Virus record (IMG/VR): IMGVR_UViG_3300020470_000524 | Span: 1 to 23,613 of that record | Direction: 5' to 3' (one strand) | DNA from: a virus | Length of the DNA stretch: 23,613 nucleotides | Shown: piece by piece, positions 939 through 7,019 of the stretch | Layout: each line of letters begins with the position of its first letter | Numbering within the stretch: position 1 is the stretch's first letter | Translations under genes and position numbers: made by a program | Notes under the pieces: model-generated | What the model saw: only the letters and a program-made list of their open reading frames with translations | Database searches by the model: none | What the model was told of the DNA's origin: nothing

Positions 939-1267
939 GTAAAAAAATAGAGATGACTCCCGCACAAAGCGAGTCTAAGGAAAAGTTGTTTGCCGAAGCT
1001 TACGACTATTATGCAAAACATTATTTCAACATTAATGATTTTGTAAGAGCAGTAGATTATTTAAGAGAAGACGGTTTGAGTTTTGCTCACATTGCAAAGA
1101 TCTCAGGTATGACTCACAAAAGTCTTATGCAGTTTTATTATCGAGATCAAATCGAACCACATGCTAGAACCAAAGGCAAAGCTAATTTCTTAATAGACTT
1201 TGTTGCTACCATGAAAAAATTAGGTACAGAAGGAATTCCAGGGAGGTACAACAATGCCAAGTCTTGA
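935..1267 (+). CDS. Small helix-turn-helix early protein
   Basis: This 110-residue basic protein contains a probable helix-turn-helix around residues 38-72: FVRAVDYLREDGLSFAHI followed by AKISGMTHKSLMQFYYR. The 'GLSFAHIAKISGMTHKSLMQFY' part resembles the 'S..eIAk..Gvs..sv..y' pattern of sigma-region-4 and MarR-like DNA-binding helices. A GAGG ribosome site lies upstream, the start overlaps the previous stop by 4 bp, and the end overlaps the ATPase gene by 14 bp, so it belongs to one operon. It probably regulates early transcription or binds DNA as part of the replication module. The exact family is unknown to me. Confidence 0.7.
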   Translation: MSKKIEMTPAQSESKEKLFAEAYDYYAKHYFNINDFVRAVDYLREDGLSFAHIAKISGMTHKSLMQFYYRDQIEPHARTKGKANFLIDFVATMKKLGTEGIPGRYNNAKS

Positions 1268-2015
1268 AGATGAATTATTATCTGGCTTAGAGCCCGGTCC
1301 AGTGAGAATGAATGTTGGTGGAGTAGATGGCATAGGTAAAAGTACCTTCGGCTCTCAAGCTCCCAATCCAGTTTTTATTTGTACCGAGAAAGGTACAGCA
1401 TTCTTAAATGTTAAGAAGTTTCCATTGTGTGAAAAGTATCAAGACATTATTGATTGCATTAAGAAACTTGCCACTATGGATCATGATCGTAAAACAGTTG
1501 TCCTAGATACTACAGACTGGGCAGAGATTTTAACTCATGAGGCCGTGTGTGCAGAAAAGAATGTAGCTAGTATAGAGGATATAACTTATGGAAAAGGTTA
1601 TACCGCATCTAGAGAAAAGTTTAGAAAGATTTTAAGAGGTTTAGATGTCTTACATGATCAAAAGAAGATGAATGTAATCTTGCTTTCGCATGTAGATATT
1701 AGAACTTTTAACGACCCAGAGAGAGAACCTTACGATAGGTATCAATTGAAGTTGCATAACAAGACAGCTTCCATCATTAGAGAATGGGTCGATTTCAATT
1801 TCTTTGCGAACCACCAGGTTCGTACTGTGAAAGAGGGGAAGGGCTTCAACGAGCAGACAAGGGCACTTGCCATGGGTGATCCTATGCTGTTCACGAAGTT
1901 CTCTCCCGCCTTTGACGCGAAGAGACGAGTTCCTCTTCCAGATAAGATAGAACTCAAATGGGATTCGTTTTACGACGAATATAAAAAATCAATTAAAAAT
2001 CTGTCGGAGGCATAA
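1254..2015 (+). CDS. Sak4-like RecA-fold ATPase (AAA_24), phage recombinase
   Basis: This 253-residue P-loop ATPase has a Walker A motif, GVDGIGKST (residues 23-31, catalytic K29), and a Walker B strand TVVLD (D85) followed by TTDW. A third strand, MNVILLSHVD, is the sensor-like strand typical of the RecA core. Size and layout fit the phage Sak4/AAA_24 group, which anneals single strands with the help of an SSB. That matches the next gene, a DUF669 protein. A GGGAGG Shine-Dalgarno lies 8 bases before the ATG. With the downstream helicase and exonuclease it forms a recombination/replication module. The alternative is a general phage nucleotide-binding protein of the same fold. The ATPase call is firm; the Sak4 role is inferred. 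Confidence 0.8.
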   Translation: MPSLEDELLSGLEPGPVRMNVGGVDGIGKSTFGSQAPNPVFICTEKGTAFLNVKKFPLCEKYQDIIDCIKKLATMDHDRKTVVLDTTDWAEILTHEAVCAEKNVASIEDITYGKGYTASREKFRKILRGLDVLHDQKKMNVILLSHVDIRTFNDPEREPYDRYQLKLHNKTASIIREWVDFNFFANHQVRTVKEGKGFNEQTRALAMGDPMLFTKFSPAFDAKRRVPLPDKIELKWDSFYDEYKKSIKNLSEA

Positions 2016-2056
2016 GTGCACAGAAAGAATAACTCAAGAATATTTTTTACTGCACT
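2015..2056 (+). other. Hairpin between the ATPase and DUF669 genes
   Basis: AGTGCA (2015-2020) can pair with TGCACT (2051-2056), extended outward by ATA/TAT with one bulge, across a 30-base loop. It covers the ATPase stop codon and ends just before the upstream ATG at 2059, leaving the ribosome site of the ATG at 2083 free. It may tune translation, but the evidence is weak. Confidence 0.25.
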
Positions 2057-2082
2057 TTATGTCTTCGCAAGGAGTTAAATTT

Positions 2083-2559
2083 ATGAGTGATGACTTTGAA
2101 ATTATGTTAGGCGAAGTGCCTGATCAAGAGGATGACTTTAAACCTATGCCTGCTGGCAACTATGAATTGGTTGCTAACAAATGGGAGAAAAGAACATCGA
2201 AAGCTGGAAATGCAATGGTTGAAATCGAGTTTCAAGTACTCGGCCCAAGCCATGCCAATAGAAAACTTTGGGAGTATTTTACTCTTGAAGGCAATGCTGT
2301 GACTGTGACTGCTAGGAAAATTAAAGCTTGGCGTAAAGCGTTAGGTTTAAGTCCAGATGTCACTTTCAATGCCGAGGTTTTGGACGAAATGATTAACAAT
2401 CCTTTTCAAGCCAAGGTCAAAATTGAGCCTGGAACAAATGGGTACGAGGACAGTAATAAGATACAAGATTACTTAGCAAAAGGATCTTCATCTGAAGAGG
2501 AGGCGCCTGCGGCGAAACCTTTACAAGAAGAAGATGATGCTATGCCTTGGGATAAATAA
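2083..2559 (+). CDS. DUF669-like single-strand-binding protein
   Basis: Residues 'MPAGNYELVANKWEKRTSKAGN' followed by 'VEIEFQVLGP..ANRKLWEYF' match the OB-like start of the phage DUF669 family, which is often encoded beside Sak4/AAA_24 recombinases. The C-terminus is acidic (SSEEEAPAAKPLQEEDDA) and ends in MPWDK, like the acidic partner-binding tip of bacterial SSB. I choose the ATG at 2083 (158 residues) because an AAGGAG site lies 8 bases upstream. The ATG at 2059 would add eight residues and has no ribosome site. The protein probably coats single-stranded DNA and recruits the neighbouring recombinase, helicase or exonuclease. The family call is from motif memory. Confidence 0.75.
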   Translation: MSDDFEIMLGEVPDQEDDFKPMPAGNYELVANKWEKRTSKAGNAMVEIEFQVLGPSHANRKLWEYFTLEGNAVTVTARKIKAWRKALGLSPDVTFNAEVLDEMINNPFQAKVKIEPGTNGYEDSNKIQDYLAKGSSSEEEAPAAKPLQEEDDAMPWDK

Positions 2560-2582
2560 CTGGGTCATCTCCCAAAAAAAGT

Positions 2583-2630
2583 CCTACCGAGCAAGTTAAT
2601 TAATACGAGCGGCGTTACGAGTTCGGTAGG
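2583..2630 (+). ncRNA. Hairpin 1 of a tandem RNA-like array
   Basis: CCTACCGA (2583-2590) pairs perfectly with TCGGTAGG (2623-2630), giving 8 bp with a 32-base loop. It is preceded by AAAGT and followed by CACAGGATTT. The same flanks surround hairpin 2, but the inner stem differs. The loop contains TTAATTAA and a TACGAG direct repeat. No open frame of note covers it. It could be a cis-regulatory leader, a processed RNA or part of an origin. Confidence 0.5.
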
Positions 2631-2645
2631 CACAGGATTTAAAGT

Positions 2646-2687
2646 CCTAGCTAAAGTTGCGTTTGTTTATCTTAAACTTCAGCTAGG
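2646..2687 (+). ncRNA. Hairpin 2 of a tandem RNA-like array
   Basis: CCTAGCT (2646-2652) pairs with AGCTAGG (2681-2687). The stem continues past one A-C mismatch with AAGTT (2654-2658) and AACTT (2675-2679), leaving a 16-base loop. The flanks AAAGT before and CACAGATTT after match those of hairpin 1, and the CCTA/TAGG base is shared while the inner pairs differ. Confidence 0.5.
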
Positions 2688-2695
2688 CACAGATT

Positions 2696-2739
2696 TCGGC
2701 TCAGTCTCCAAAAAAGTCGAAGTCTAGGTAGTGAGCCGA
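2696..2739 (+). ncRNA. Hairpin 3 of a tandem RNA-like array
   Basis: TCGGCTCA (2696-2703) pairs with TGAGCCGA (2732-2739), giving 8 bp with a 28-base loop. The loop holds TCTCC followed by an A-run and AGTC, resembling the sequence just before hairpin 1 (2569-2583). Downstream, CGGG (2743-2746) and CCCG (2756-2759) flank a T-run. This is not a standard terminator because the T-run lies in the loop. Confidence 0.4.
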
Positions 2740-2797
2740 TATCGGGTCTGTTTTTCCCGGCATAAAAACTACTTAGTCTTCGCATTAGGAAACAAAT

Positions 2798-3064
2798 ATG
2801 ATTGATGATAAAAAATTAGTCGCTAACTCTGAGAAGTTGTTAGCAAAAATATATGAGGTAAACAATCACATACTGCCAGTTGAATTATTTGATGAGGTTG
2901 CAGCTTGTGTTGTTTCGATAAACAGATTAAAGAGAGCGAAGGTGCTATATGAAAGACGACAAAATAGATTTGGAAAAGATATCCAAGAAGGACTTATTAA
3001 CAGAATTACGAATACACATGATGTCATTCAACAGAAGAATGGGAGAGATCAAAAATCCCCATAA
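2798..3064 (+). CDS. Small early protein of unknown function
   Basis: This 88-residue, largely helical, soluble protein has a hydrophobic centre (NHILPVELFDEVAACVVSIN) and a basic C-terminus. An AGGAA ribosome site precedes the ATG, and the gene is the first after the hairpin array. Its last 116 bases overlap the next gene in another frame, and the C-terminal stretch there (RRQNRFGKDIQEG and on) is polar and of low hydrophobicity. Either both genes are read through a long overlap, or this protein is an extended or frameshifted remnant. I do not recognise the family. Confidence 0.55.
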   Translation: MIDDKKLVANSEKLLAKIYEVNNHILPVELFDEVAACVVSINRLKRAKVLYERRQNRFGKDIQEGLINRITNTHDVIQQKNGRDQKSP

Positions 3065-3377
3065 ATTATTAGAAGTATTATTGACCTATGTTTGCTGCGT
3101 CACTTACGACGTATTGGAACATAGTACCAATGAAGCAACCATGTTGATCGGTGCATCCTGGGGCAGAGTCATTAATGATATTGCTAAAGAAAAAGGCATG
3201 ACTAGAAAAGAAGTTTTCTTCCAGGCAGATATGTTGGGCAATATAGCAGGAGGTGCTAATACTAATTGGAACTCTATGAATGAAGATTATGTAATAGATC
3301 CAGAGGAGCTTGATGAAGAAGAAGTACTCGACGCTGTTAAACTTCAAATGGAAAGCAAAGATAAAACGAGACACTAA
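2949..3377 (+). CDS. Early protein of unknown function
   Basis: This 142-residue protein has a basic start (MKDDKIDLEKISKKD), a central hydrophobic helix (LLEVLLTYVCCVTYDVL), a Gly/Asn-rich stretch (NIAGGANTNW) and a very acidic C-terminus (DPEELDEEEVLDAV). I chose the ATG at 2949 because GAAGG lies 7 bases upstream; ATGs at 3018 and 3021 lack a ribosome site but would shrink the overlap with the previous gene. Its stop overlaps the next start (TAATG). Function is unknown. The placement between the SSB-like gene and the helicase suggests a DNA-metabolism accessory role, which is inference. Confidence 0.65.
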   Translation: MKDDKIDLEKISKKDLLTELRIHMMSFNRRMGEIKNPHKLLEVLLTYVCCVTYDVLEHSTNEATMLIGASWGRVINDIAKEKGMTRKEVFFQADMLGNIAGGANTNWNSMNEDYVIDPEELDEEEVLDAVKLQMESKDKTRH

Positions 3378-6512: not shown

Positions 6513-6535
6513 TATAAAAAAAATTTTTTATTTCT
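6513..6535. terminator. Weak A/T-run terminator between convergent genes
   Basis: A palindromic A-run followed by a T-run, with more T-rich sequence to the right, lies where the leftward HNH gene and the rightward small zinc-protein gene converge. It has no GC stem, so at best it is a weak bidirectional terminator. The fold at 6378-6463 may help on the rightward side. Confidence 0.25.
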
Positions 6536-7019
6536 TTTTATTTCTTACGATATTTTCACACCACCAGAGCAACATGTCCTCACTCAAGGTATGTTTGATG
6601 ATGTTGGCACGCTGACAAACCAATTGAATGTTGTATCTGACGTACCATTCTTCTGGATCTATTCTGTCTATGGTTACGTTGAGGTCTTTCTTACCACTGC
6701 CGTCTCGATAGTGTGTCATCAATACGCCAGACAAAGCGCAAAGACCATCTTGGTTTTCCCATATCTCTATTAAATCTTCTGGAGTTATCTCCCATTCTTT
6801 TTCTGGATTCTTGCTAACTCTAGTATGTCTTAGTTGATTGTGAATTAAATTTAAAAAACTTTTATAACTTGATGATCGTTTTCTGTTTCTATCTATCACA
6901 TGACAATCTCTACAAAGACCGCGATAGGTTGTACCGCCGCCAACTTGTTCTCTAGCTTCAAAAAATTTAATCTTCCGCCTTTTCTTGCAAAGGGTACAAG
7001 TCCTGGTTTTTTGAGTCAT
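6528..7019 (-). CDS. HNH-family endonuclease
   Basis: This 163-residue protein has an N-terminal zinc knuckle with C8, C11, C36 and C39. A C-terminal HNH-like core follows: GLCALSG (92-98), TIDRID (116-121), and YNIQLVCQRANIIKHT (129-144). The pattern 'C..SG...TIDRIDP...Y...NIQLVC...N..K' is one I know from phage HNH enzymes in which the first His is replaced, so catalytic competence is likely but unproven. Its start overlaps the DUF1064 stop by one base (TAATG), so the two nucleases form a small leftward operon. It could cut DNA during packaging, recombination or host-DNA breakdown, or be a homing enzyme. A homing role is less likely, as it does not interrupt a gene. Confidence 0.8.
   Translation of the reverse strand: MTQKTRTCTLCKKRRKIKFFEAREQVGGGTTYRGLCRDCHVIDRNRKRSSSYKSFLNLIHNQLRHTRVSKNPEKEWEITPEDLIEIWENQDGLCALSGVLMTHYRDGSGKKDLNVTIDRIDPEEWYVRYNIQLVCQRANIIKHTLSEDMLLWWCENIVRNKKK

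Follow-up and report, generated by a model that had tools for sequence, protein, structure and literature searches.

Mobile structured cassettes behind an SSB-like phage gene as candidate RNA punctuation elements

The DNA analysed here (the window) is a stretch of 23,613 nucleotides, corresponding to positions 1 to 23,613 of the IMG/VR virus record IMGVR_UViG_3300020470_000524. A non-coding array of structured units, which as a whole spans ~2577-2785, lies between a gene for a phage ssDNA-binding-like (SSB-like) protein, itself preceded by a gene for a Sak4-like annealing ATPase, and a small gene of no assigned function (Table 1). The first unit starts 19 nt past the SSB-like gene's stop codon. 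Elsewhere in the window, a small HNH-type gene gave no match in a Pfam search, and a late protein shows 31-40% matches to stabilisation proteins from non-T4 phages.

Table 1. Genes and array features of the window (H, hairpin unit; PK, pseudoknot unit; gene X, see text).
Feature	Position	Strand	Remarks
Sak4-like single-strand annealing ATPase gene	1254-2015	+	One gene further upstream; PHROG 124, E=1e-33; Pfam AAA_24
DUF669 / phage ssDNA-binding-like (SSB-like) gene	2059-2559	+	Upstream of the array; Pfam PF05037, E=4e-13; PHROG 378
Unit 1 (H)	2579-2633	+	AAGTC 2579-2583; stem CTACCGAGC..GTTCGGTAG; GCAC 2630-2633; also carried by close relatives
Linker, units 1/2	2634-2641	+	AGGATTTA
Unit 2 (H)	2642-2690	+	AAGTCCTAGCT..AGCTAGGCAC; AAGTC; stem CTAGCT.AAGTT/AACTT.AGCTAG; GCAC
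Pseudoknot unit (PK)	2695-2785	+	Helices S1 and S2, inner hairpin; AAGTC 2714-2718; GCAT 2782-2785
PK helix S1	2696-2703/2732-2739	+	Third hairpin of the first-pass annotation
PK helix S2	2719-2731/2769-2781	+	5' strand begins within the S1 loop; 12 of 13 positions paired
PK inner hairpin	about 2743-2746/2756-2759	+	Between S1 and the 3' strand of S2
Small gene, no assigned function	2798-3064	+	Downstream; AGGAAAC ribosome-binding-type sequence directly after the array
HNH-type small protein gene	6528-7019	-	65-74% DNA identity to its counterpart in gene-X phages, where the gene context differs

The first-pass annotation had described tandem hairpins with common flanks and different, still paired stems, and this is what units 1 and 2 are: both follow the H layout (AAGTC, variable stem, loop, GCAC), sharing their flanks and differing in the inner stem and loop. 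The third hairpin described there is sound as a pairing but not as a separate hairpin, being helix S1 of an H-type pseudoknot whose second helix, S2, ends at 2781. The likeness that had been seen between its loop and the sequence before hairpin 1 is genuine, since the S1 loop contains repeat D1, the AAGTC flank belonging to the next unit, and S2 is framed by AAGTC and GCA, as in the H units. The array region (2560-2797) has folding-energy z-scores, relative to shuffles, of -3.3 (+ strand) and -3.7 (- strand). A detector for AAGTC-stem-GCA[CT] reports three units in ~210 bp of the window, and 475 kb of shuffled phage DNA gave two. A long-range pairing around both hairpins (CTGGGTC/GGCTCAG), favoured by the minimum-energy fold, is broken in two relatives (L002 and L003) and was rejected.

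At gathering score, no Rfam family matches the array (an E-value search of the gap returned a chance microRNA match only), a tRNA/tmRNA search found none, and a literature search returned only citations of the PeSL elements discussed below and general papers on structured RNA.

Close relatives were collected via the SSB-like protein and compared over the same gap, which holds one to four units in varied combinations: a single H (L005, L007, L013-L024), H+PK (L004), H+H+PK (the window, L002, L003), H+PK+H (L008-L011), H+H+PK+H (L006) or H+H+H (L012). In L004, unit 2 of the window is missing and the flanks are 98.6% and 95.4% identical. A repeat (TAGGCACAG...ATT) recurs at the unit junctions, which are the places of unit gain and loss, and, this repeat being common to them, repeat-mediated gain or loss would be enough within arrays. 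Gain and loss involve complete units, which makes the array modular and mobile and not one fixed regulator. Among the readings proposed earlier, a tandem cis-acting RNA element is best supported. An intact gene pair with missing stems did not occur in the relatives, and no support turned up for a replication origin, which had also been suggested.

Scans of viral contigs yielded about 76 distinct units in at least three phage groups that differ in gene content. The viral relatives are all metagenomic contigs (IMG/VR assemblies, often fragments), several of them from the same surveys, so that the counts do not represent independent events. The AAGTC/GCAC flanks served in part as search criteria, and loci found by protein similarity alone carry them too; over half of the initial pattern matches were chance or coding sequences lacking a stem, and a stem was therefore required in all later counts. 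In the second phage group, the units sit behind a gene of no assigned function (gene X), which has no relative among cultured or named phages, and the array region itself gave no DNA match in cultured phages. The carrier phages are uncultured and apparently marine. Positions 2641-2739 of the window are 85% identical over 101 bp to L054, a locus of another, unrelated phage group that carries a homologue of unit 2 and the start of the pseudoknot. Beyond the array, the DNA shared by loci of the window group and the gene-X group is limited to the HNH-type gene, a small gene and a short, weak match. The small gene (about 40 codons, L024:2546-2676 and L054:7988-8118) is 85% identical across otherwise different groups, a similarity that points to gene exchange.

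The third group is represented by a 59-kb contig (L142), in which neither gene X nor the Sak4 gene of the window group was found, and whose 51-bp unit is 96% identical to that of L134, this unit being the sole DNA common among the loci compared. Six relatives of this contig (L207, L208, L210-L213), with a protein 93-98% identical to that of L142, have an empty site, and their comparison with the filled sites of L142 and L206 reveals a clean insertion with a flanking TAA repeat (3 bp): the filled site reads ...GACTTCTAA-ACAAAAGTCC..GGCAC-TAATCC... and the empty one ...GACTTCTAATCC... The units are therefore mobile, as shown by their gain and loss within the gap and by the recurrence of the same unit in phages without other common DNA. 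Records searched whole contain a single cluster each for the pattern used. A second, separate H unit with a 12-pair stem is seen in one gene-X phage (L198:4338-4383), 11 nt past the stop codon of another gene. Bacterial matches with long stems were few (Chitinophagaceae, Pseudoalteromonas and Leucothrix), and the bacterial total is at or below chance by a rough estimate; the hairpins concerned are intergenic, of the form AAGTCCTA-long stem-TAGGCAC (L175 and L177 from Chitinophaga and a relative, L172 from Pseudoalteromonas, L173 from Leucothrix).

The first-pass annotation had proposed that the secondary structure is under selection, arguing from two units of one genome, and had asked for covariation in relatives; the relatives now support this. 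In an alignment of 24 distinct PK units, pairing holds in 93% of cells and 11 of the 21 pairs show double changes, with a covariation score of 0.268 versus 0.138 in shuffles (none of 500 as good), a conservative figure because two rows (L006 and L008), each shifted by one column within S1, weigh against it. When the partners are slid by one column, pairing falls to 42%, and all slid versions are far worse. Additionally, the stems of 79 distinct units, read on the gene-sense strand, contain 28 G-T wobbles versus 7 A-C mismatches; the units compared are related by descent, and among 36 dissimilar representatives the counts are 8 versus 1, a modest excess (P about 0.04). An excess of G-T over A-C on the sense strand fits a selected sense-strand RNA and not a DNA cruciform alone, and the comparison supports the view that selection acts on the units as RNA of the gene-sense strand.

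This asymmetry bears on whether the units might simply be selfish DNA, that is, a miniature element moved as ssDNA by a transposase, REP-associated or of the IS200/IS605 type (Y1), that reads foot and hairpin, any RNA role being incidental. The clean insertion with its 3-bp flanking repeat and the lack of coding content would fit such an element, as would ends that stay constant while the hairpins they enclose vary: small palindromic mobile elements such as REP/BIME and PATE are likewise intergenic insertions of non-coding hairpins whose feet are conserved. Nevertheless, besides the wobble asymmetry, the units typically form one cluster per record, unlike REP families, and keep one orientation relative to the genes, in sense behind stop codons. 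Moreover, a search that was positive in control genomes found no Y1 transposase in nine related phage records, although a host could supply the enzyme. On balance we consider this explanation unlikely.

The position of the units bears on what they may do. In nearly all clusters the first unit lies 3-19 nt past a same-strand stop codon, and almost all units lie outside long reading frames. Among 72 relatives compared over the gap after gene X, H units are present in 36, ten of them with a tail of T6 or longer, and another GC-rich hairpin is present in 28, many of these being T-tailed, plain terminators; T-tailed H units also occur behind other genes in further contigs, some units ending in GGCA+T6-8. 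Units and terminators thus occupy the same gaps, and the units stand where terminators stand. In the window itself, a consensus scan detected no + strand terminator in the array and no T run follows the units, so that this copy is unlikely to act by plain intrinsic termination. The units resemble intrinsic (rho-independent) terminators in their post-stop position and, for some members, in the T-tailed end, and differ from them in the constant AAGTC/GCAC frame, the pseudoknot members, the mobility and the tandem arrangement. On the + strand, a sigma-70 consensus scan of 1900-3200 gave no promoter match.

Further structured sequences were observed in the gap after gene X. Within about 90 bp past the gene X stop, L255, L256 and L269 carry another pseudoknot module (GTCTACCCCGACGG..GTCGCTGTCGGGACTGACTTTAAAGTTGC.GAC..CAC), without an Rfam match, in which the second helix varies in an apparently compensatory way (GTAAGTC/GACTTAC, GAGAGTC/GACTCTC, GGAAAGTC/GACTTTCC). 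Other long structured non-coding sequences (e.g. ..GTGGGGATGAAAAGCCCCAC.., ..GGTCTGGTTCGGGGTATAAACCAG..) occupy the gap in L276, L280-L284, L287, L297, L301, L305-L307, L312-L316 and L321, with no Rfam match among those scanned. This gap has the look of a structured-RNA hot spot. In L047, downstream of the array (~6560-6190, - strand), a second long non-coding stretch with many inverted repeats includes AGCTAGGACTAG..CTAGTCCTAGCT, which holds the stem sequence of an H unit.

The array also directly precedes the ribosome-binding-type sequence of the next gene, and pseudoknots are frequent in leaders, both of which would suit a 5' cis-regulator (riboswitch-like or a protein-autoregulated leader) of the small downstream gene. 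The leader of T4 gene 32, for instance, contains a pseudoknot through which an SSB is autoregulated; here, however, the pseudoknot lies behind the SSB-like gene, and elsewhere the same units follow unrelated genes. Such a leader seems improbable to us, given that the set of units varies freely ahead of the same gene and that the downstream genes are wholly different between groups, the post-stop position being what stays constant. The unit of L142 has convergent genes on its two sides, the next gene being on the opposite strand, so that it does not form the leader of an adjoining downstream sense gene.

It has also to be considered whether cleavage of the units releases stable small RNAs (decoys or antisense), with AAGUC/GCAC as a processing or binding mark. 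The base motif GUC/GCAC with its bulged C is constant across H and PK units, the loops vary freely and the units come in tandem, all of which this possibility would accommodate; the T-tailed single units, however, resemble ordinary terminators, and we regard it as very unlikely.

The nearest known kind is the promoter early stem-loop (PeSL), which reportedly combines an early promoter with a terminator stem-loop in T4-like phages, in descriptions attributed to Arbiol et al. 2010 and Comeau et al. 2014. Papers citing them present PeSLs as small intergenic regulatory stem-loop cassettes shuffled between phages of the T4 type (PMC4503421, PMC3950731). As far as these citing papers describe them, PeSLs resemble the units of the present family, which are also stem-loop cassettes with a variable stem that move between phages. 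The differences are that the sigma-70 scan found no promoter in the window array, a promoter being the part that PeSLs are said to carry, and that the present family has the AAGTC/GCAC frame, pseudoknot units and tandem arrays. On these grounds, and within what the citing papers convey about PeSLs, our best reading is that the window units are a different family, and we do not file them as PeSLs.

Since the first unit lies nearly always behind a stop codon and terminators take the same position in relatives, we favour the reading, which sequence comparison makes reasonably probable, that the units are mobile cassettes without a promoter, serving as RNA punctuation where the upstream gene ends. 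The family would consist of non-coding, structured cassettes of 35-100 bp, either H or H-type PK, within the frame AAGTC ... GCA(C/T). T-tailed units may act as terminators or attenuators, intrinsic termination being the simple reading, and for units without a T run, as in the window, partial attenuation, protection of the transcript end or processing would be more likely. Transfer might proceed via recombination at short homologies of the unit ends, perhaps helped by the Sak4-like annealing recombinase encoded next door, whose presence is no more than suggestive. A bolder proposal, which we hold to be rather doubtful, is that H and PK units, although their stems are unrelated, form one mobile RNA system, in which AAGUC/GCAC and the bulged C would be a common recognition element read by one host or phage factor, the cassettes spreading among unrelated phages as plug-in RNA devices whose tandem combinations tune the genes around them.

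The swapping of genes between phages is well known; here, the item swapped is a structured RNA element of 50-100 bp, and the empty and filled sites, the tandem arrays and the compensatory stems make both its mobility and the selection for its structure visible. The family is a candidate addition to RNA databases, searchable in other phages, and offers a tractable case of the spread of regulatory RNA parts among unrelated viruses.
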